Origin: Nocardioides jiangxiensis
GTDB taxonomy: Bacteria; Actinomycetota; Actinomycetes; Propionibacteriales; Nocardioidaceae
Direction: 5' to 3'
NCBI RefSeq assembly: GCF_030580915.1
Contig: NZ_JAUQTA010000001.1
Coordinates: 620,001-684,000 of the forward strand
DNA: 64,000 nucleotides
Part shown: positions 6,251 to 15,919 of the stretch, piece after piece
Position numbering within the stretch: the stretch's first letter is position 1
Layout: each line of letters begins with the position of its first letter
Position numbers and translations under genes: made by a program
The notes under the pieces: model-generated
The model's database searches: none
What the model saw: only the letters and a program-made list of their open reading frames with translations
What the model was told of the DNA's origin: nothing

Positions 6251-6339
6251 GGGGATCCTCCTCGATCGCGGAACGGCTCATCTTCCCAGACGACTGCGTC
6301 TGGGTCGAATCGGGTGAGCCGGGGCGGCCCGTCAGGGCC

Positions 6340-6621
6340 TCAGTCGGTGGTGGTGATCCGCACCTGGACCTCACGCAGCTGCACGAGGACACGCGCGCGG
6401 AGGCCCTCCGGCGCCGACTCGTGGCATGAGCGGGCGACGACCTGCTTCACGGTGCGCTCGAGGTCGTACTTCTTCAGACAGGGGCCGCACTCGTCGAGAT
6501 GGTGGCGGACCGCGCTGCAGTCGGCCTCGTCGAGCTCGTTGTCGAGGAAGAAGACGATGCGCTCGAGGTAGTCGGCACAGTCCTCGGTGCGGGGCTGGCC
6601 CTGGGGCTCCGGGGCGCTCAC
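6340..6621 (-). CDS. rsrA: Anti-sigma factor RsrA/RshA (zinc, redox-sensing)
   Basis: Holds SigR inactive under reducing conditions; disulphide stress oxidises its cysteines, releases zinc and frees the sigma factor. The 93-residue protein carries the ZAS motif HxxxCxxC (His41, Cys45, Cys48) and an N-terminal Cys15 in [10 protein letters not shown], the ligand set of RsrA. Extra cysteines occur at 35 and 66. The start ATG overlaps the sigR stop (ATGA), so the two proteins are translationally coupled. Mycobacterial homologue: RshA. Confidence 0.95.
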
Positions 6622-7229
6622 GACACGACCTCCTCACGGGTCAGGCCGAACATGTCGTTCTCGCGGACGTAGTCCTCGAGGAGCGTGCGCAGCTGGCGGC
6701 GACCGCGGTGCAGTCGCGACATCACGGTGCCGATCGGAGTGTCCATGATCTCCGCGATCTCCTTGTACGGGAATCCCTCGACGTCGGCGAGGTAGACAGC
6801 CAGACGGAACTCCTCGGGCAGGCGCTGCAACGCGTCCTTCACCTGGGAGTCGGGGAGGTGCTCGAGCGCCTCGTGCTCAGCAGACTTCAGCCCCGACGAC
6901 GTGTGCGACTCGGCGCGTGCGAGCTGCCAGTCCTCCACGTCCTCGGACATCGACTGCTTCGGCTCCCGCTGCTTCTTGCGGTAGCTGTTGATGAAGGTGT
7001 TCGTCAGGATCCGGTACAGCCAGGCCTTGAGGTTCGTCCCCGGCTTGAACTGGTGGAACGCGGCGAACGCCTTCGCGAACGTCTCCTGGACCAGGTCCTC
7101 CGCGTCGGCCGGGTTGCGGGTCATGCGCAGCGCCGCCGAGTAGAGCTGGTCGAGGTAGGGCAGGGCGTCTCGCTCGAAGCGGAGCGATCGCTCGGCCTCG
7201 GTCTCGTTGTCAGGAACCACGTCAGTCAT
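6618..7229 (-). CDS. sigR: ECF sigma factor SigR/SigH, disulphide and heat stress
   Basis: Directs RNA polymerase to thiol-oxidative stress promoters (thioredoxin, mycothiol and protein quality control genes in relatives). The 203-residue product has region 2 ([20 protein letters not shown] and [19 protein letters not shown]) and region 4 ([19 protein letters not shown], then [14 protein letters not shown]). The start is uncertain. ATG 7229 has GGGAGG only 2 nt upstream, whereas an in-frame GTG at 7220 would be spaced 11 nt. The frame also stays open upstream through GTG and TTG codons (N-terminal VNAVLDRSS), which could encode a longer isoform like the SigR' of Streptomyces. It forms an operon with rsrA. 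Confidence 0.95.
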
Positions 7230-7293
7230 CGCCTCCCAGAATAGGTCAGCGCTCAGCGACGAGCGGTCGAGTACGGCGTTCACGTCGATGCTC

Positions 7294-7319
7294 AACGGCG
7301 GCTGTGCCCGATTTCTTCC
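7294..7319 (-). promoter_or_regulatory. Candidate SigR-dependent autoregulatory promoter
   Basis: On the minus strand GGAAG (7315-7319) is separated by exactly 18 nt from GTT (7294-7296). SigR/SigH promoters read GGAAT-N18-GTT, so there is one mismatch. It sits 65 bp upstream of the sigR ATG, where positive autoregulation is expected. Confidence 0.5.
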
Positions 7320-7342
7320 GACTTCCTCCGTCGCCGGACGCG

Positions 7343-8002
7343 TCAGCCGCGTGCGATCTCCCGCACGACCCATTCGAGCGTCGCCTCGACCACCACGGAC
7401 AACGCCTCCTCCTGCGAGAGCGGTGCCGACTTCGGGACCTTGAAGGAGTGGTCGGCCGCAGGGACGACGGCCATCTCGGTGCCGTCGGGGAACTCGTCGG
7501 GCCGGCCGAAGGGGTCGCGCTCTCCCTGGATGACGAGCGTGGGTACGCGGGACCCGGTCAGCTCCCCGACCCGCGACTTCTCGGGCTTGCCCGGCGGGTG
7601 CAGCGGGAACGCGAGGGCGAGGCATCCGCTGGCGCCGAGCCCGCGGGCGCAGCGCGCCGCCGAGCGGGCGCCGGCCGACCTGCCGCCCACGACGAGCGGG
7701 TTCCGCGGGCGGATCTGGTCGGCCACGGCGTTCAGGGCGACGTCGAGGGACGCAGGTGTGCCTGCGATCTTCCGTCCGGCGACCCGCCAGGGCTGCTCCA
7801 GGAGGAGCACGCTGATCCCCTGCCCCGGGAGGTGGCCGGCGAGTGCACTCAGGTCCGGTGCGTCGATGCCACCGCCGGCGCCGTGGCTGAGGAGGAGCGT
7901 GGCCACCGGACGCTTGGCGCGATGGGCGACGAGCCGCGCAGGACCGCCCGGTGTCTCGTACGTGCGACTCTCGCTCACGCGACCATCATGCCCACAGGTC
8001 AC
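7343..8002 (-). CDS. Alpha/beta hydrolase, KANL3/TEX30-like
   Basis: A 219-residue alpha/beta hydrolase of the small dienelactone-hydrolase-like type. It has an oxyanion-loop segment [14 protein letters not shown], the nucleophile elbow [12 protein letters not shown], an acid in the segment [10 protein letters not shown] and a catalytic His in AADHSFKVP. Substrate unknown. GTG at 8002 overlaps the stop of the upstream SRAP gene (GTGA), suggesting coupled translation; a second in-frame GTG nine codons in ([11 protein letters not shown]) could be the real start. It lies between sigR and the SRAP gene in the conserved stress block. Confidence 0.82.
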
Positions 8003-8721
8003 GACTGCAGGGGAAGCGGCGCGACGAGCTCCGGCCCGTTGTTGCGGACGTTGCCGACAGCGGACGACACCGGATAGGCCGTCAGCCGTCCGGGCGCCGC
8101 CGGCTCGAGCAGGTTGAGCAGTTCCGCGCCGGCGGCGGTCGGGTCGAGCCAGTCGTCCCAGCGGTCACGCTCGACCATCAGCGGCATGCGGTCGTGGATC
8201 ATCCCCACGTCGTCGGTGGCCTCGGTGGTGATGACGGTGCAGGTCCAGAGGAAGCGCCCCGGGTCGTCCTCACCGCGGGCCGGGTCGCGCCAGATCTCGT
8301 ACAGGCCCGCCATCGGCAGCACTCCCCCGTCCGCGGGGCGGATGAAGAACGGCTGCTTCCGCGGCTTGCCCCTCGCATCGAGCTCGGAGGTCGGGTACCA
8401 CTCGTAGTAGCCGTCCGCCGGCACCAGGCAGCGGCGTACGGCGAGGGCGCGGCGGAACGCGGGCTTCTCGGCAAGTGTCTCGAGCCGCGCGTTGATCATG
8501 CGCGTGCCGATCGACCGCTCCTTCGCCCAGGACGGGACCAGGCCCCAGTGGACGGCGCGCAGCTGGCGCTCCTCGTCCTTGGGACGCTCCATGACCGCGT
8601 AGACCGGGTCGGTCGGAGCGACGTTCCACGACGCAGTGATCTCCTCGTCGAGGTGGGGAACGGCGTCGAACTCCTCGATCAGCTCGTCCGGGCGCCGGGA
8701 GGAGGCATAGCGACCACACAT
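7999..8721 (-). CDS. SRAP-domain protein (YedK/HMCES family), abasic-site DNA crosslinker
   Basis: Forms a covalent thiazolidine link with abasic sites in single-stranded DNA and shields them during replication. The 240-residue product begins MCGRYA, so Cys2 becomes the reactive N-terminus after Met removal. Other active-site residues are visible: Asn77 in MINARLET, Glu107 in DGYYEWYP and His176 in GMIHDRMPLMV, equivalent to Asn75, Glu105 and His160 of E. coli YedK. The start is fixed by the need for Cys2. The M. tuberculosis homologue Rv3226c lies at the same place between sigH and aroA. It runs into the hydrolase gene with a 4-bp overlap. Confidence 0.95.
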   Translation of the reverse strand: MCGRYASSRRPDELIEEFDAVPHLDEEITASWNVAPTDPVYAVMERPKDEERQLRAVHWGLVPSWAKERSIGTRMINARLETLAEKPAFRRALAVRRCLVPADGYYEWYPTSELDARGKPRKQPFFIRPADGGVLPMAGLYEIWRDPARGEDDPGRFLWTCTVITTEATDDVGMIHDRMPLMVERDRWDDWLDPTAAGAELLNLLEPAAPGRLTAYPVSSAVGNVRNNGPELVAPLPLQS

Positions 8722-8821
8722 GTCCGTGACGATACGACCACGCCCTGACATGACTCGGGCCGGCCGCATCCCCCCGTCAGGTGCGGTCGGCCCGATCCAT
8801 CCCGAGAGGGCTGGGTGCGCC

Positions 8822-9562
8822 CTAGCGGGCGAGCTCGTCGAGGAGCAGCGCAGCGACCTCGTCGGAGCCGGGCAGGCCCTCGATCCAGACGCGCGTGGGG
8901 AAGTCGGCCGAGGCGAGCAGCGTGCGTACGAGCGCGACCCGGCGCCCGAGAACCGGATCGCGCTCGACGACAGCCACGACACGGCGGACGCCGAGGCGCC
9001 CGATCGTCTCCGCACCGTTGAAGACAGTGCCCGCCGACTGGCCGACCCGGGCCAGCCTCAGCGTGCGGGAGAAGCCGGAGTCAGGAGCCGCGAGCGACTC
9101 GACGGTCTCGGGGATGTCGATGACGACGAGCGCGTGCTGCAGCGACACGTCGCCGCCGCTGCGCGCCGCCGCCCGGTAGAGCTCGGCGAGCCGGCTGCGC
9201 ACGTGGGCGAGGCTGGCCAGACCCGTGAGCGGGTCCTCGCAGGAGATCTGGTGGAGGTAGGCGAGCGTGCCCTCGCTCCACGCGACGCTGATCGCACGCA
9301 CGGCGTCGTACGACGGATCGGCGCCGAGCACCGCCTGCGACGTCTGGCGGAGCGCGTCGAGCACCTCGTCGAGGGCAGCGCCGTCCTGGGCGAGCCGGCG
9401 CCCGACGACGTCGTACGCCTCCAGAGAGCGTGATCCCGAGGCCAGGACCTCCCCGACAGCCTCGAACCGGCGCGGCAATGCGGCGCGCACCTGCTCGGAC
9501 AACTCCCGGCCTGCCTCGGGACCGCCCGTGTGGCCACGGCGTCGTGTCGTCAACAGCCCCAC
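8822..9562 (-). CDS. Degenerate GGDEF-like protein
   Basis: A 246-residue soluble protein. Residues about 105-246 align in pattern with a diguanylate cyclase domain: the entry motif EDPLTGLASLAHVRSRLAEL is present. The GG(D/E)EF signature is absent; its place is taken by SGFSRTLRLARVG, so cyclase activity is unlikely. The N-terminal 90 residues are helical (REL...ALPRRFEAVGEVL) with no known domain. GTG at 9562 has GGGGAG upstream. It is divergent from the ECF sigma fusion gene. It could be an enzymatically dead nucleotide sensor or scaffold; this is inference. Confidence 0.6.
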   Translation of the reverse strand: MGLLTTRRRGHTGGPEAGRELSEQVRAALPRRFEAVGEVLASGSRSLEAYDVVGRRLAQDGAALDEVLDALRQTSQAVLGADPSYDAVRAISVAWSEGTLAYLHQISCEDPLTGLASLAHVRSRLAELYRAAARSGGDVSLQHALVVIDIPETVESLAAPDSGFSRTLRLARVGQSAGTVFNGAETIGRLGVRRVVAVVERDPVLGRRVALVRTLLASADFPTRVWIEGLPGSDEVAALLLDELAR

Positions 9563-9759
9563 GGTTGCTCCCCTCTGTGTCTTGCTCCACTGAAGTCATG
9601 CGAGGCCCGCCCCCGTCATGCGGGCCTCGAACACCGGTGAAACGGGGGCCCACGCGGTTCATGACGCGGATTCGGCGACGAATTTCCGGAACATCCCGGA
9701 GACGGTGTCCGCCACATAGGATTGGCGTCATACATCCGCGATCCGATCGTTGAGCACAC

Positions 9760-11721
9760 GTGACCGACACCTTGACGCTCCAGGAAACGGGCGATGCCGA
9801 GCTCATCTCGGCCGTCCGTGGTGGTGACGTCTCCGCATACGGTCCGCTCTTCGAGCGACACGTCGAGGCAGCCCGGCGACTCGCCCGCCAGCTGGTGGGC
9901 GCGGCCGACGCCGACGACCTGGTCTCCGACGCGTTCGCCAAGGTGCTCCGTGTGCTGCAGGGCGGCGGCGGACCCGATGTCGCCTTCCGCGCCTACCTGC
10001 TCACCTCGATCCGCCGCCTGCACGTCGACCGGATCCGGGCGACCTCGCGCCTGCACTCCACCGACGACATGGAGGCGTTCGACCCCGGCGTCCCGTTCCG
10101 CGACACGGCGGTCGAGGGGTTCGAGAGCGCCGCGGCAGCCAAGGCGTTCGCCTCGCTCCCCGAGCGGTGGCAGGCGGTCCTCTGGCACACCGAGGTCGAG
10201 GGCCAGAAGCCCGCTGAGGTGGCAGCGCTCCTGGGGATGACGCCCAACTCGGTCTCGGCCCTCGCCTACCGCGCCCGCGAGGGCCTGCGCCAGGCGTTCC
10301 TGAACTCCCACGCCATGGAGGTCGACGACGACGCCTGCGCGTGGACGCACCAGCACCTCGGCGGCTACATCCGCAAGGGCATCAGCAACCGTGACGCGAG
10401 CAAGGTCGAGAAGCACATCGACGAGTGCCGCAAGTGCATGGCGATCTACCTCGAGCTGAGCGAGGTCAACAACAACCTCGCCGCCATCCTGGCCCCGCTC
10501 CTGCTCGGCAGCGCCGGCGTCGGCTACCTCGCGACCGCCGGCGCGGCCACCAAGGGCGCGGTCGTGCTCTTCTTCGACCGGATCAAGGACGGCATCAGCT
10601 CGAACGGGCCGGCGACCGCGGCAGCCGCCGGCGTGGCCGCGGCCGGCGTGATCGCGGCAGCCACCGTCTTCGCGCTCCAGTCGGGTGGCGACAAGCCCTC
10701 GTCTCCGCAGGCCGACGCTCCGCCGCCTGCCGCGACCTCGACCACACGGCCGTCCACGTCCTCCGACGAACGGTCGACCGCACCGACCACCACCTCCTCC
10801 TCCTCCTCGTCCACCGCGCCGCGCACGAGCAGCTCGACCACGCCGACGGCCACCTCGACCGCGACGGCCAGCCCGACGCCCACGACGTCGCCCACCACCT
10901 CCTCGCCGACGCCCACCCCGACGCCCACGCCCACGCCGACTCCCACACCCACGCCGACCACCGCCGACGTGGTCGTGACCGCCGGCACGGTGAGCGCCCC
11001 CGATGCGAGCGGCACCTCGACGGTCGACATCGCGGTGTCGGGCATCCCGGCGGGCGAGAGCGTGACCGTCACCTGGAGCGAGCCGGCGCCGGCCAGCCCA
11101 CGCCCGGCCATGCGTCAGTACCTCGCTGCGACGACCACGACTCCGTCCAGTCCCGGGCTCGAGGTGTCCTGCGAGGACGACGACTGCCTCCTGACCAGGA
11201 CCCGTGACCACCTCGTCCTCACCGCGACCGTGACCGACGACGTGGCGCACGACCTGACCATCACGCTGGTCCCGTCGAGCGGCATCCACGATCCCGACCC
11301 GAGCGACAACTCCACGACCATCCACCTCGAGCCGGCGCCGACGGCCCCGCCGGTGACCGGTGACGCCTCCGTCTCGGTGGTGTTCCTGCCGAGCAACGGG
11401 ATCGGCGACCCCAAGCGGCGCTTCAGCATCACGGCAACGGGTGTGCCGACCGGCCAGACCGCGACCGTGGTCATCAGCTGGCAGGGACTCACACCGCAGT
11501 CCGACGTACCGACCGGATGTACCGACACCGGCGATGCATGGTCGTGCACGGTCACGGACACAGGACTGCTCACCGAGGCGCAGTTCAAGGCTGATGCCCT
11601 CGCGCTGCTCCCCAGCCTCACGGCCACGCTGACGAGCACCAGCTTCACCGACACCGATCCGACCAACGACACCTCGACCGCAGCAGGCTGCATCGTGGGC
11701 GCTGGCGGACTGTGCATCTGA
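9760..11721 (+). CDS. ECF sigma factor fused to anti-sigma zinc finger, membrane anchor and extracellular domain
   Basis: A single 653-residue polypeptide combines a sigma factor with what is normally a separate anti-sigma factor. Region 2 (about 20-95, with [17 protein letters not shown] and [18 protein letters not shown]) and region 4 (about 128-180, [20 protein letters not shown]) are intact. A ZAS-like zinc finger follows (Cys193, His197/199, His219-x3-Cys223-x2-Cys226). One clear membrane helix spans about 286-307. Outside it lie a Ser/Thr/Pro-rich stalk (about 315-400, with nine Pro-Thr pairs) and two Ig-like beta segments (about 404-645), each with a cysteine pair (CEDDDC; the other near 572-582). 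GTG start at 9760. Release of the sigma part would need proteolysis or a conformational signal across the membrane. Such C-terminally extended ECF groups are known in Actinobacteria; the stimulus is unknown. Confidence 0.88.
10906..10959 (+). repeat. Pro-Thr hexanucleotide repeat in the ECF fusion stalk
   Basis: Nine consecutive CC(G/C/A/T)AC(G/C) units encode (Pro-Thr)9 at residues 383-400. The array is imperfect at the third codon positions. It is likely an extended, possibly glycosylated wall-spanning spacer. Confidence 0.85.
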
Positions 11722-11744
11722 GTGCTGTCGATACCCTTCTCCCC

Positions 11745-13007
11745 GTGACGATCACCGACCCCTGGCCTGCTCCACGCGCCCTGGCGCCCGTCGACGTGAC
11801 GGTCTCGCTCCCGGGGTCGAAGTCGCTCACCAACCGTGCACTGCTCCTCGCCGCGATCGCCGACGGCCCCTCGGTCGTACGCCGGGCGCTGCGGTCGCGC
11901 GACACGCTCCTGATGGCGGCGGCGCTGACCTCGATCGGGGCGGCCGTCGACACGAGCGGCGACGACTGGACGGTCACCCCCGGAGCCTTCGACCGCGACG
12001 CGGAGGTCGACTGCGGCCTGGCCGGCACGGTGATGCGCTTCGTCCCACCCGTGGCCGCCCTGTCGACGGGCGCCATCGCGTTCGACGGCGACGAGCACAT
12101 GCGCAACCGCCCGGTCGGCGAGATCCTCGCGGCCCTGCGCAGCCTCGGCATCGACATCACCGACGGCGACCGGCTGCCCTTCACCGTGCGCGGCACCGGC
12201 GCGGTCGCGGGCGGTGAGGTCACCGTCGACGCCTCGAAGTCCTCGCAGTTCATCAGTGCGCTGCTGCTCGCCGGAGCCCGCTACGACAAGGGCGTGGACG
12301 TGCGGCACGTCGGTGCGCCGGTGCCGTCGCTGCCCCACATCGAGATGACGGTCGAGATGCTGCGTGCCCAGGGCGTCGCCGTCGACGACTCCGAGGCCGA
12401 TCGCTGGACCGTCGCGCCCGGCCGCGTCGCCCCGGTCGACCTGGCCATCGAGCCCGACCTCTCCAACGCCGCGCCCTTCCTCGCGCTCGCGGCGGTCTCC
12501 GGGGGCTCCGTCACCGTGCGCGACTGGCCGCTGCGCACGACCCAGGCCGGCGACGCGCTGCGCCAGGTCCTGGCCGACATGGGCTGCACGGTCTCGCTGG
12601 ACGCCGACGGGCTCACCGTCGAGGGCCCCGACGCGCTTCAGGGCGTCGACCTCGACCTGCACGACGTCGGTGAGCTCGCCCCGGCGATCGCCGCGCTGTG
12701 CGCGCTGGCCGTCAGCCCGTCGCGCCTCACCGGCATCGAGCACATCCGCGGACACGAGACCGACCGGCTCACCGCCCTGGCCACCGAGCTCAACGCGCTC
12801 GGCGCCGACGTGACCGAGCTGCAGGACGGCCTCGAGATCCGGCCCGCTCCCCTGCACGGTGGCGTCTTCCACACCTACGCCGACCACCGGATGGCCCATG
12901 CCGGCGTGATCATCGGCGCCGCGGTCGACGGCGTCGAGGTCGAGAACGTCGCCACCACGTCCAAGACCTTCCCCGACTTCGCGACCTTCTGGTCCGGGCT
13001 GCTCTGA
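11745..13007 (+). CDS. aroA: 3-phosphoshikimate 1-carboxyvinyltransferase (EPSP synthase)
   Basis: Transfers the enolpyruvyl group from PEP to shikimate 3-phosphate, the sixth step of chorismate synthesis, in the cytosol. The 420-residue protein has the N-terminal [17 protein letters not shown] motif (about 21-37), the [10 protein letters not shown] segment in place of the Gram-negative NAGTAMR form, and the C-terminal [10 protein letters not shown] loop. GTG at 11745 is preferred; the frame extends 11 codons upstream into the sigma-fusion gene. It is followed 13 bp later by rsgA, as in mycobacteria and streptomycetes. Confidence 0.96.
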
Positions 13008-13020
13008 CGGTCGGGCGGCG

Positions 13021-14025
13021 ATGAGCGGACGGCAGCGGTACACCGAGCACGACCACGAGCACTACGAGCGCCCGCGTCGTCGTACCAAGCCGCGCACCAA
13101 GGACCGGCCCACCTACGACGACGCGGTCGACGGCCTCGTCGTCACCGTCGACCGGGGCCGTTTCACCCTCCTGGTCGACGGTCGGCTGGTCTACGCGATG
13201 AAGGCACGGCCCCTGGGACGCAAGGGCGTCGTCGTCGGCGACCGGGTGCGCGTCGTCGGTGACGTCTCCGGCGACGACGGCACGATGTCCCGCATCGTCG
13301 AGGTCCGGAAGCGCGTCACCACCCTGCGCCGCACGGCCGACGACGACGACCCGGTCGAGCGGATCATCGTCGCGAACGCCGACCAGCTGGTGGTCGTCAC
13401 GGCCCTCGCCGACCCCGAGCCCCGGCCGCGCCTGATCGACCGCGCCCTCGTCGCGGCGTACGCGTCGGGGATGAAGCCGGTGCTCTGCCTGACCAAGGCC
13501 GACCTCCGTGACCCCGAGACCCTGCTGTCGACCTACCGCTCCCTCGGCGTGCCCTACGTCGTGACGCAGCGCGGTGGCGACCTCGCCGAGGTCCGCGAGG
13601 TGCTCGAGGGCCACACGAGCGTGCTGGTCGGCCACTCCGGGGTCGGGAAGTCGACGCTGGTCAACGCGCTCGTGCCCGACGCGGGCCGGGAGGTGGGCCA
13701 CGTCAACGCGGTCACGGGCCGCGGACGTCACACGTCGACGAGCGCCTACCTCCTCGAGCTTCCCGACGAGGCCGGGTGGATCATCGACACCCCGGGCATC
13801 CGGTCCTTCGGCCTGGCGCACGTCGAGCCGTCGATGCTGATCGAGGCGTTTCCCGACCTCGACGAGATGACCGAGGACTGCCCGCGGGGCTGCACGCACG
13901 GTGCGGGCGAGCCCGAGTGCGGGCTCGACGACGCGGTCGCGTCGGGGCAGGCGGACGCCGAGCGGGTCGAGTCCTTCCGCCGCCTGCTCGCCTCGCGCGA
14001 GGGCGGCGCCGACCACCCGGGCTGA
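13021..14025 (+). CDS. rsgA: Ribosome small-subunit assembly GTPase RsgA
   Basis: Circularly permuted GTPase that checks late 30S subunit assembly. The 334-residue protein has an OB-fold (about 38-98), then G motifs in permuted order: LTKAD (157-161) before the P-loop GHSGVGKST (204-212) and DTPG (256-259). A C-terminal zinc knuckle follows (Cys287, Cys291, His293, Cys300). A 30-residue highly charged His/Arg-rich N-terminal extension precedes the OB-fold. It is co-directional with aroA, 13 bp downstream, and convergent with the DUF2231 gene. Confidence 0.95.
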   Translation: MSGRQRYTEHDHEHYERPRRRTKPRTKDRPTYDDAVDGLVVTVDRGRFTLLVDGRLVYAMKARPLGRKGVVVGDRVRVVGDVSGDDGTMSRIVEVRKRVTTLRRTADDDDPVERIIVANADQLVVVTALADPEPRPRLIDRALVAAYASGMKPVLCLTKADLRDPETLLSTYRSLGVPYVVTQRGGDLAEVREVLEGHTSVLVGHSGVGKSTLVNALVPDAGREVGHVNAVTGRGRHTSTSAYLLELPDEAGWIIDTPGIRSFGLAHVEPSMLIEAFPDLDEMTEDCPRGCTHGAGEPECGLDDAVASGQADAERVESFRRLLASREGGADHPG

Positions 14026-14035
14026 GGCCCCGGGG

Positions 14036-14500
14036 TCAGGCCCCGACGCCCTTCCAGACCGCCTCCGCGCCCGAGTGCCCGGTCATCACCACGAGGTAGA
14101 GGACCGCCACGGCCGCCAGCGGCAGCAGCACCGTGACCAGGCGGCCGAGCAGGACACCGCCGTGAGCACCGCGCACGGCCCGGACCGGGAGAGCCCACCA
14201 CGCCACGACCGCGATCGCGGCAAGGACCCAGGCCGCGGCCTGCAGCCGTCCGGCCCACGCCTCGTGCGTCTGGACGAGCGGGTTCGCCCCGCCGAGGCTG
14301 GCGGCCAGGCTGTCTCCGGTCATCGCGGCCAGCTGCACCGCCCCTGCCGCGACCACCGCGATCAGCGCGGCCGCGTGGCGCAGCCACGCACGGCCTGCGG
14401 GCACGACGGCGTACGCGAGGGCAGCCAGGGCGGCGGTGGGTGCGAAGACCACCGCAGCGTGCACGACGAGCGGGTGGAGCGGGATTCCGGAGATGGTCAC
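14036..14500 (-). CDS. DUF2231-like membrane protein
   Basis: A 154-residue protein with four membrane helices. It opens with the characteristic ISGIPLHPLVVHAAVVFAP, whose histidines are the family signature, and has a second His-containing loop (QTHEAWAGRLQ) and a late MTGHSGAEAVWKG. DUF2231 proteins are small integral membrane proteins possibly related to haem or redox membrane proteins; the function here is unknown. The GTG at 14500 was chosen because the conserved HPLVVH motif then lies near the N-terminus. No good ribosome-binding site is visible. Confidence 0.8.
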   Translation of the reverse strand: MTISGIPLHPLVVHAAVVFAPTAALAALAYAVVPAGRAWLRHAAALIAVVAAGAVQLAAMTGDSLAASLGGANPLVQTHEAWAGRLQAAAWVLAAIAVVAWWALPVRAVRGAHGGVLLGRLVTVLLPLAAVAVLYLVVMTGHSGAEAVWKGVGA

Positions 14501-14590
14501 GAGATGCACCGTATCCACCGTTTCCTGACAAAAGCCTGACTGGCGGGCACGCGTCGCCGGCCCGTGACGTCGACCCCATAACCTGTAGCC

Positions 14591-15451
14591 ATGGCTGACG
14601 ACTACACCGACGACCTGCGCCTCGCGCACGTGCTCGCCGATGACGCCGACTCGATCACGCAGGACCGGTTCAAGGCGCTCGACCTCCACGTCATGAGCAA
14701 GCCCGACCTGACCCCGGTCAGCGACGCCGACCAGGCCGTCGAGGAGTCGATCCGCCGTACGCTCTCCCGCGCGCGCAGCCGCGACGCCATCGTCGGCGAG
14801 GAGCAGGGATCGAGCGGCCACAGCCAGCGACGCTGGATCATCGACCCGATCGACGGCACCAAGAACTTCGTCCGCGGCGTCCCCGTGTGGGCCACGCTGA
14901 TCGCCCTCGAGGTCGACGGCGAGGTCGTGCTCTCCGTGGTCTCCGCTCCCCTGCTCCAGCGGCGCTGGTGGGCGGCCAAGGGCCAGGGCGCCTGGACCGG
15001 GCGCAACCTGATGAAGGCCACCCAGATCCACACCTCCGACGTACGCCGGCTCGAGGACGCGTCGTTCTCCTACAGCTCGCTGGCGGGCTGGGAGGAGCGC
15101 GGACAGCTCGACGACTTCCTCTCGCTGTCGCGCCGGGTCTGGCGCACCCGCGCCTACGGCGACTTCTGGAGCTACATGATGGTCGCCGAGGGCGCCGTCG
15201 ACATCGCGGCCGAGCCCGAGCTCGAGCTCTACGACATGGCGGCGCTCGACGTGATCGTCCGCGAGGCCGGCGGCCGGTTCACCTCGCTGGACGGCCAGGA
15301 CGGTCCGTGGGGCGGCAACGCCGTCGCGACCAACGGCCACCTGCACGACGCCGCCCTGGCGTTCCTCGGCTCGGTCGACGACGACACCGACCCCGACAGT
15401 GAGCGGGTACCCGGCAGCGTCGCCCTGTTCAGCCGCCGCCCGCAGGGCTAG
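14591..15451 (+). CDS. hisN: Histidinol-phosphatase, inositol monophosphatase family
   Basis: Hydrolyses histidinol phosphate, the eighth step of histidine synthesis, in the form used by Actinobacteria. The 286-residue protein has the metal-binding IMPase motifs GEE (69-71), DPIDGTKNF (85-93) and the C-terminal [19 protein letters not shown]. HisN in actinobacteria is typically found beside aroA and rsgA, which supports this over a general inositol phosphatase. No Shine-Dalgarno is visible before ATG 14591; TAACCT ends 6 nt upstream, so the mRNA may be leaderless. Confidence 0.88.
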
Positions 15452-15487
15452 CGTGGTGATCCGGGGGTCACTGCGAGGAGGCACCGG

Positions 15488-15919
15488 ATGCAGATCAGCG
15501 ACGTACTCCGCAGCAAGGCGGACCAGGCAGTCGTGACGATCGCCCCTGATGCGGGCGTGCGCGACCTCCTGGCCCTGCTGGCGCTCCACAACATCGGCGC
15601 GGTCGTGGTCAGTCCCGACGGCCAGCACATCTCCGGCATCGTCTCCGAGCGCGACGTCGTCCGCCGGCTGCACAGCGACGGCACGGTGATCAACAACGTG
15701 GTCTCCGCGATCATGACCACCGTCGTGCGCACCTGTGAGGCCGGCGATGACCTCGACGAGGTGCTCGAGGTGATGACCAACGGCCGCTTCCGGCACATCC
15801 CGGTGACCGACGGGGCGGCCTGCGTCGGCATCGTCAGCATCGGCGACCTGGTCAAGCACAAGATCGACCAGCTCCAGTTCGAGCGCGACCAGCTCGACCA
15901 CTACGTGCACCAGACCTGA
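15488..15919 (+). CDS. CBS-domain pair protein
   Basis: A 143-residue stand-alone tandem CBS module (about 8-65 and 75-130). Family members bind adenine nucleotides (AMP, ATP or SAM) as a small regulatory unit. Typical segments are HNIGAVVVSPDGQHISGIVSERDVVRR and GRFRHIPVTDGAACVGIVSI (both partly conserved beta-alpha-beta units). The C-terminal helix (QLQFERDQLDHYVHQ) may dimerise. GAGGAGG lies upstream of ATG 15488. It follows hisN by 36 bp; the partner protein is unknown. Confidence 0.88.
   Translation: MQISDVLRSKADQAVVTIAPDAGVRDLLALLALHNIGAVVVSPDGQHISGIVSERDVVRRLHSDGTVINNVVSAIMTTVVRTCEAGDDLDEVLEVMTNGRFRHIPVTDGAACVGIVSIGDLVKHKIDQLQFERDQLDHYVHQT

Follow-up and report, generated by a model that had tools for sequence, protein, structure and literature searches.

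Fusion of a sigma factor with a zinc-finger anti-sigma domain in a membrane protein of Nocardioides jiangxiensis, with a degenerate GGDEF-fold partner gene and a shared promoter-like motif

The window studied here is a stretch of 64,000 nucleotides from Nocardioides jiangxiensis (contig NZ_JAUQTA010000001.1, positions 620,001 to 684,000). It contains a gene for a fused ECF sigma factor, in which sigma regions, a zinc finger, hydrophobic helices, a stalk and two outer beta domains follow one another in a single frame (Table 1). The initial annotation described the gene as lying between the SRAP gene and aroA, and omitted a second, divergent gene between SRAP and the fused sigma gene, here called the partner. 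The intergenic region between the two genes contains two oppositely oriented copies of a promoter-like motif.

Table 1. Features of the fused sigma locus (positions in the window)
Feature	Position	Strand	Evidence
Partner gene, 246 aa, N-terminal helical bundle and degenerate GGDEF-fold domain	8822..9562	-	ORF, profile, AlphaFold
Promoter-like motif GCGTCAT-N16-CGTT facing the partner	9641..9667	-	motif discovery and scan
Promoter-like motif GCGTCAT-N16-CGTT facing the fused sigma	9725..9751	+	motif discovery and scan
Fused ECF sigma / zinc-finger anti-sigma / membrane / Ig-like sensor gene	9760..11721	+	single 653-aa ORF, Pfam, AlphaFold
Sigma region 2, residues 30-97	9847..10050	+	Pfam Sigma70_r2 2.5e-10
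Sigma region 4, residues 127-174	10138..10281	+	Pfam Sigma70_r4_2 2e-7
ZAS zinc finger zf-HC2, residues 193-226	10336..10437	+	Pfam 2.2e-5
Conserved hydrophobic helix 3' of the finger, residues 240-262, probably non-spanning	10477..10545	+	hydrophobicity, alignment, charge pattern
Likely single membrane-spanning helix, residues 286-308	10615..10683	+	hydrophobicity, model, K+R before versus after
(Pro-Thr)9 stalk, residues 383-400, within a Pro/Ser/Thr-rich linker	10906..10959	+	sequence
Outer Ig-like beta domain 1, residues 405-525, Cys 471/476	10972..11334	+	AlphaFold, Ig-like fold matches
Outer Ig-like beta domain 2, residues 537-644, Cys 587/596, 644	11368..11691	+	AlphaFold, Ig-like fold matches

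The fused sigma frame starts with GTG, ends with a stop codon at 11721, and has the codon-position bias usual for high-GC DNA without signs of a frameshift. The listed start of aroA overlaps its end by 10 bases (11712-11721); aroA may in fact begin further inside its frame. The matches to Sigma70_r2, Sigma70_r4_2 and zf-HC2 each exceed the Pfam cut-off, and the protein also matches TIGR02937 (1.3e-17). Regions 2 and 4 are present and region 3 is absent, which identifies the protein as an ECF sigma factor. The HxxxCxxC motif (H219-C223-C226), which the initial annotation had recognized in the same frame as the two sigma regions, is invariant in an alignment of 51 proteins (A3, window protein included), all of which matched the three domains. 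It lies beside helices at residues 191-238 (zf-HC2, AlphaFold), as in class I (ZAS) anti-sigma factors. The helix-turn-helix of region 4 is strongly conserved and retained in the window protein, which bears on the initial annotation's alternative of a region 4 unable to bind DNA. An internal start giving separate proteins, raised by the initial annotation, was considered at M186, the methionine nearest the finger and the only one examined; this position lacks conservation, with M in just one of the 51 proteins. These observations support the initial view of a single membrane protein that unites a sigma factor with an anti-sigma domain of the zinc-finger type and an outward-facing sensor part.

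The protein has two hydrophobic stretches, at about residues 240-262 and 286-308, where the initial annotation counted one membrane helix; we take only 286-308 as a likely span. The first of the two carries a strongly conserved motif (L..LLAPLLLG....YL). When the 20 residues before and after the second helix were compared in 80 relatives, the number of K+R was higher before the helix in 61, equal in 19 and lower in none. Because this excess precedes the second helix, we favor a topology with one span, which would place the stalk outside. A two-span topology was rejected on the basis of the charge pattern and the outer character of the C-terminal part, which argue against it short of proof.

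The (Pro-Thr)9 stalk and the two outer beta segments with cysteine pairs (471/476, 587/596 and 644/652) were found as initially annotated, and the segments were modelled as two Ig-like domains. In the AlphaFold model (51 sequences, mean pLDDT 72, pTM 0.36), the helices of the sigma part and the finger are well modelled, the membrane-linker part is poor, and the two beta domains are of middling confidence. A fold search gave ECF sigma factors from complexes with anti-sigma factors or polymerase, including SigW/RsiW, AlgU/MucA and BldN/RsbN, as well as Ig-like adhesin folds, all with low whole-protein TM-scores. The outer parts vary among relatives: complete frames range from 456 to 1769 amino acid residues (the longest at L136:6001-11307), and DUF11 was found in 7 of the 51 A3 proteins, the window protein not among them, Big_9 and cadherin-like domains in two, and an NPCBM-associated domain in one.

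The fusion architecture is of a known kind. The initial annotation had suggested a search for ECF groups of this build, and fused membrane ECFs are indeed on record as ECF48, ECF52, ECF53 and IutY (PMC8999054). As far as the accessible part of that paper goes, SCO4117 is called the best understood of the actinobacterial groups, and IutY is the one experimentally characterized proteolytic case named. ECF48 and ECF53 are described there as zinc-finger fusions with one to two membrane helices, for which release by proteolysis is expected (PMC8999054); the window protein, compared with them by description only, has the fusion architecture in common.

ECF52 (SCO4117 of Streptomyces coelicolor) likewise combines a sigma factor, a zinc finger, a membrane segment, a Pro-rich stretch and an outer domain in one protein. 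Its carbohydrate-binding module is smart00776, which we take to be NPCBM. The window protein differs in having Ig-like outer domains and no NPCBM, and NPCBM is also absent from the 14 families listed for A3, apart from the NPCBM-associated match above. Both proteins of family f22 that were scanned (L226, L230) have it. In a tree of the sigma domains, seven of the eight f22 proteins formed one branch (95/96) with the window protein outside; the deep branches are weak, and proteins L226-L245 entered the tree trimmed to some 12 residues ahead of the profile match instead of to a called start. No pseudo-GGDEF neighbor was found in seven f22 loci. Membership in ECF52 was rejected from the absence of NPCBM and the separation in the tree from the NPCBM-bearing f22 proteins. 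The putative motif published for ECF52, CSGYN-17bps-SRHA (PMC5826349), also differs from the motif described below.

The initial annotation held that the sigma part must be kept at the membrane and released by cleavage or movement, which is plausible. In the resting cell, regions 2 and 4 of the sigma part would be clamped in cis by the zinc-finger domain, at the membrane, and the two stalk-borne Ig-like domains would monitor the condition of the wall or surface layer. The sigma part would then be freed upon a signal, by site-2-type proteolysis or a change of shape. IutY (ECF243) of Pseudomonas putida, likewise a sigma factor fused to a membrane anti-sigma factor, is freed through cleavage by Prc and RseP (PMC8999054); it differs in serving Gram-negative cell-surface signaling for iron (PMC8999054; PMC5411451). 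We consider it rather unlikely that release occurs without any proteolysis, with an outer force or ligand binding opening the finger through the membrane helix and the sigma factor working while tethered. The conserved helix at 240-262, next to the finger, could relay such movement, and SRAP was the sole protease match among the traced conserved neighbors (6300-15919, Pfam on part of them). However, IutY is a precedent for cleavage, a tethered sigma factor would need to reach chromosomal promoters, and the genome encodes site-2-type peptidases (PF02163) at two places. Neither place is near the gene.

The partner of the window matched no Pfam family, and GGDEF_2 was matched in just 2 of 43 partner orthologues. 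A profile of these 43 proteins gave GGDEF domains as its top four PDB matches (FimX, 7.8e-4). The AlphaFold model of the partner is confident (pLDDT 91.5), and the 50 PDB structure matches listed for it were GGDEF-containing proteins by title, including DosP, which we presume to be one. Their TM-scores over the whole partner are low (0.34-0.46) because the C-terminal half alone matches. This half has the same fold as the GGDEF domains of FimX and SiaD; the partner differs from them in its N-terminal helical bundle and in the GG(D/E)EF signature of active diguanylate cyclases, which occurs in none of the 43 members. A loose D.LTG-like pattern is present in 40 of the 43.

A wider genome scan gave at least 442 confirmed relatives of the fused sigma, of which the best 80 were taken. 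Among these 80 loci the partner adjoins the fused sigma in 77 (75 divergent, 2 co-directional), with gaps of 63-443 nucleotides; the three exceptions are L126, cut by a contig end, L143, a second sigma copy, and L171 (Streptoalloteichus), which has no partner. In the reverse direction, 34 of 246 genomes of the class had a partner match at 1e-8, of which 30 cover at least three quarters of the profile and four are partial and in different frames. All 30 near-full-length matches adjoin a fused sigma, 11 of them in partner-sigma order on one strand (from comparison of two tables). This order is also that of family f23; two f23 loci (L233, L236) encode fused sigmas with outer Ig and ricin-type lectin domains directly 3' of the partner. 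A further 20 fused-sigma loci had the partner in five cases. At L096 (G014), a distant fused sigma is accompanied by a partner split over two overlapping frames.

It is unlikely, in our estimation, that the fused ECF is an ordinary one whose pseudo-GGDEF neighbor has an unrelated function and is linked to it by no more than a common bidirectional promoter region. This would agree with the fused sigmas that lack a partner, namely L043, L171 and 17 of 18 more distant loci (L096 and L098-L114, with the partner in L096 only). However, the two genes stay adjacent, in either of two orientations, in families whose surroundings differ considerably, near-full-length partners always adjoin a fused sigma in the 246 genomes, and the same promoter motif goes with the pair in both gene orders. 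The partner has lost the GGDEF signature and would most likely act back on the fused sigma as a regulator that binds protein. No such partner was found described in the literature on GGDEF proteins and fused ECF groups that we covered, which did not include the main classification paper, where the pairing may be printed; the word GGDEF occurs in neither PMC8999054 nor PMC5826349.

The gene was searched for in 36 Nocardioides genomes. A close orthologue, with 65-83% identity over the sigma-finger part, was present in 20; nine had weaker matches only, and seven had none at 1e-12. Twenty orthologue loci were retrieved, and in these the fused sigma has the same neighbors beside it; both the SRAP and aroA sides were seen in 18; the exceptions are L041 (contig edge on the SRAP side) and L056 (another family, without the aroA side). 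From genomes without a close orthologue we obtained 16 aroA loci, 14 of which hold SRAP and aroA, and none of these 14 has a fused sigma or partner between them. The earlier statement that the gene interrupts a conserved block is true in comparison with some relatives, and others carry the gene within the block. Because the sigma-less loci also lack the partner, their state would fit a joint loss of both genes. The best 80 relatives include sequences from Nocardioides, Kribbella, Aeromicrobium, Pseudonocardiaceae, Phytohabitans and Nocardiopsis, and fused sigmas are common among the 246 sampled actinomycete genomes. Judged from these comparisons of sequence, the fused sigma belongs to an old actinomycete family. 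As the orthologues share their neighbors and the family spans Kribbella to Nocardiopsis, the insertion in this lineage proposed initially was rejected. In one genome (L057, G023), a break near residues 106-113 divides the fused sigma gene between two frames, either through a sequencing error or because the gene has decayed; its row in alignment A1, the first third of which is out of frame (assembly frameshift), was retained. The second gene beyond SRAP (6300-7244, minus strand), kept with the block in most of the loci fetched, encodes a SigH-type sigma factor (TIGR02947, 4.4e-107) with a small zinc-finger anti-sigma-like gene.

The motif in the intergenic region has the ECF-like consensus GCGTCAY-N16-CGTY. 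It was discovered on 33 of the 80 regions and scanned for as CGTCA-N16-19-CGT in regions of at least 60 nucleotides. Among the 80 regions, it faces the partner in 67 and the fused sigma in 26, with both in 16; the means of 200 simple shuffles were 0.85 and 1.0, respectively. The 47 regions outside the discovery set had a partner-facing motif in 35 cases. It also precedes the partner in three of four f23 loci, which have the other gene order, and lies upstream of two of three partnerless f39 fused sigmas (L237, L239). The motif was not found before any of seven f22 fused sigmas or in any of the 14 SRAP-aroA gaps without a fused sigma. Of six Kribbella-type loci (L148-L153, one of them bearing a Streptomyces title), none has a partner-facing motif and all have a sigma-facing one, 83-159 nucleotides before the start. 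In the window, the -10-like part ends 8 nucleotides 5' of the sigma start codon, and this distance is 8-10 nucleotides in 11 of the 12 Nocardioidaceae regions with a sigma-side motif (window included). Because of this short distance, the sigma message may be leaderless. A third match in the window (11340-11366, minus strand) lies inside the sigma gene; at least three matches occurred in 4 of 100 window shuffles.

We searched the whole genome with the strict motif and found 20 sites, versus 3 for the reversed pattern; 12 of the 20 precede a called gene by a heuristic assignment. The genes 3' of the sites include those for RbpA, SsgA, two Wzz proteins, an SLT transglycosylase, a DUF5667 protein and secreted-looking proteins. 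In the comparison of other genomes, "without sigma" means without a close orthologue, and 7 of the 15 genomes so classed (G002, G014, G025, G026, G033, G034 and G035) have a more distant fused sigma with 38-46% identity. At a threshold of 1e-30, 15 of the 16 other genomes examined with the sigma have an ssgA-like gene, against 3 of the 14 lacking the sigma. Upstream of this gene, a relaxed motif (CRTCA-N17-CGTY) occurs in 16 of 16 genomes with the sigma (N. jiangxiensis included) and in none of the three without; its -35 part was chosen after inspection, and the related species are not independent. Controls gave a shuffled mean of 0.08, and 11 matches in 648 other stretches of ssgA-like loci. 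The strict motif precedes the gene in 4 of 15 other genomes with the sigma. In parallel, knockout of SCO4117 of ECF52 lowers ssgB transcripts (PMC5826349).

Strict sites averaged 15.9 per genome in the 17 genomes that have a close orthologue and 10.7 in the 15 that do not (reversed pattern, 3.8 and 5.5). These 17 are from the 20 close-orthologue genomes (G004, G016 and G023 omitted); G031 was left out, and the ssgA comparison additionally omitted G032 and G035. Strict sites preceded genes in 7 of 40 cases from three other sigma genomes (G001, 17 of 17 sites; G024, 13 of 13; G005, 10 of 14), in 5 of 40 from genomes without a close orthologue (G025, 15 of 15; G028, 4 of 4; G021, 9 of 9; G002, 5 of 5; G034, 4 of 5; G014, 3 of 15), and in 57 of 640 random positions. 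The corresponding counts in non-coding-like sequence were 30/40, 25/40 and 149/640, with 17/20 in the own genome. Because 7/40 stands against 5/40, a wider conserved regulon is not claimed; it was dropped when the own-genome pattern was not reproduced in the three other sigma genomes.

ECF41 extensions are not known to be membrane anti-sigma fusions. The ECF41 promoter, TGTCACA-n16-CGTC (PMC3426412), has in common with the window motif a GTCA core in the -35, CGTC in the -10 and a spacer of 16 ± 1, and differs in its -35 (TGTCACA versus GCGTCAY); because of this resemblance, another sigma factor could read some of the sites. That such a factor, for example of the ECF41 type, controls the locus while the target of the fused sigma differs is quite improbable: the similarity to the ECF41 promoter (PMC3426412) and the sites in genomes without a close orthologue, including one before a 221-aa frame in G021, would agree with it, but the motif stays with the fused sigma in loci of altered gene order and in distant clades and is missing from the locus gaps (14/14) and ssgA-like upstream regions (3/3) without the sigma.

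We therefore prefer, with reasonable confidence, to regard the fused sigma as a one-piece, autoregulated surface-sensing module, which would be released by proteolysis or a change of shape, would have the partner as its feedback regulator, and would act on GCGTCAY-N16-CGTY targets including the ssgA-like gene. The free sigma part would transcribe from these promoters its own gene (probably leaderless), the divergent pseudo-GGDEF partner gene and the ssgA-like cell-division gene. A fuller version is offered more tentatively, as slightly less likely than not: a two-protein module, in which a tethered sigma factor with its cis anti-sigma domain and a trans regulator descended from an inactivated GGDEF enzyme share one autoregulated promoter type and connect the state of the surface to SsgA-type control of division. 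The partner and the promoter motif were not found described in the literature that we covered. Together they point to cell-surface and cell-division genes as targets. With a target promoter that can be named, a partner that is nearly constant and a division gene as a likely target, an orphan architecture becomes directly testable.

Some individual strict sites are also recorded here. In the N. jiangxiensis genome, a site precedes the DUF5667 gene (L259, C1:1940945-1940971, minus strand) beside another ECF sigma gene (C1:1941025-1941525). A site 35-36 nucleotides before a 221-aa frame occurs both in a genome with the sigma (L326, G005) and in one without (L355, G021), and perhaps belongs to another sigma factor. 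Two sites (L255, L263) lie 41 nucleotides before the read starts of the two Wzz chain-length genes, one of which is fused to a P-loop NTPase domain.
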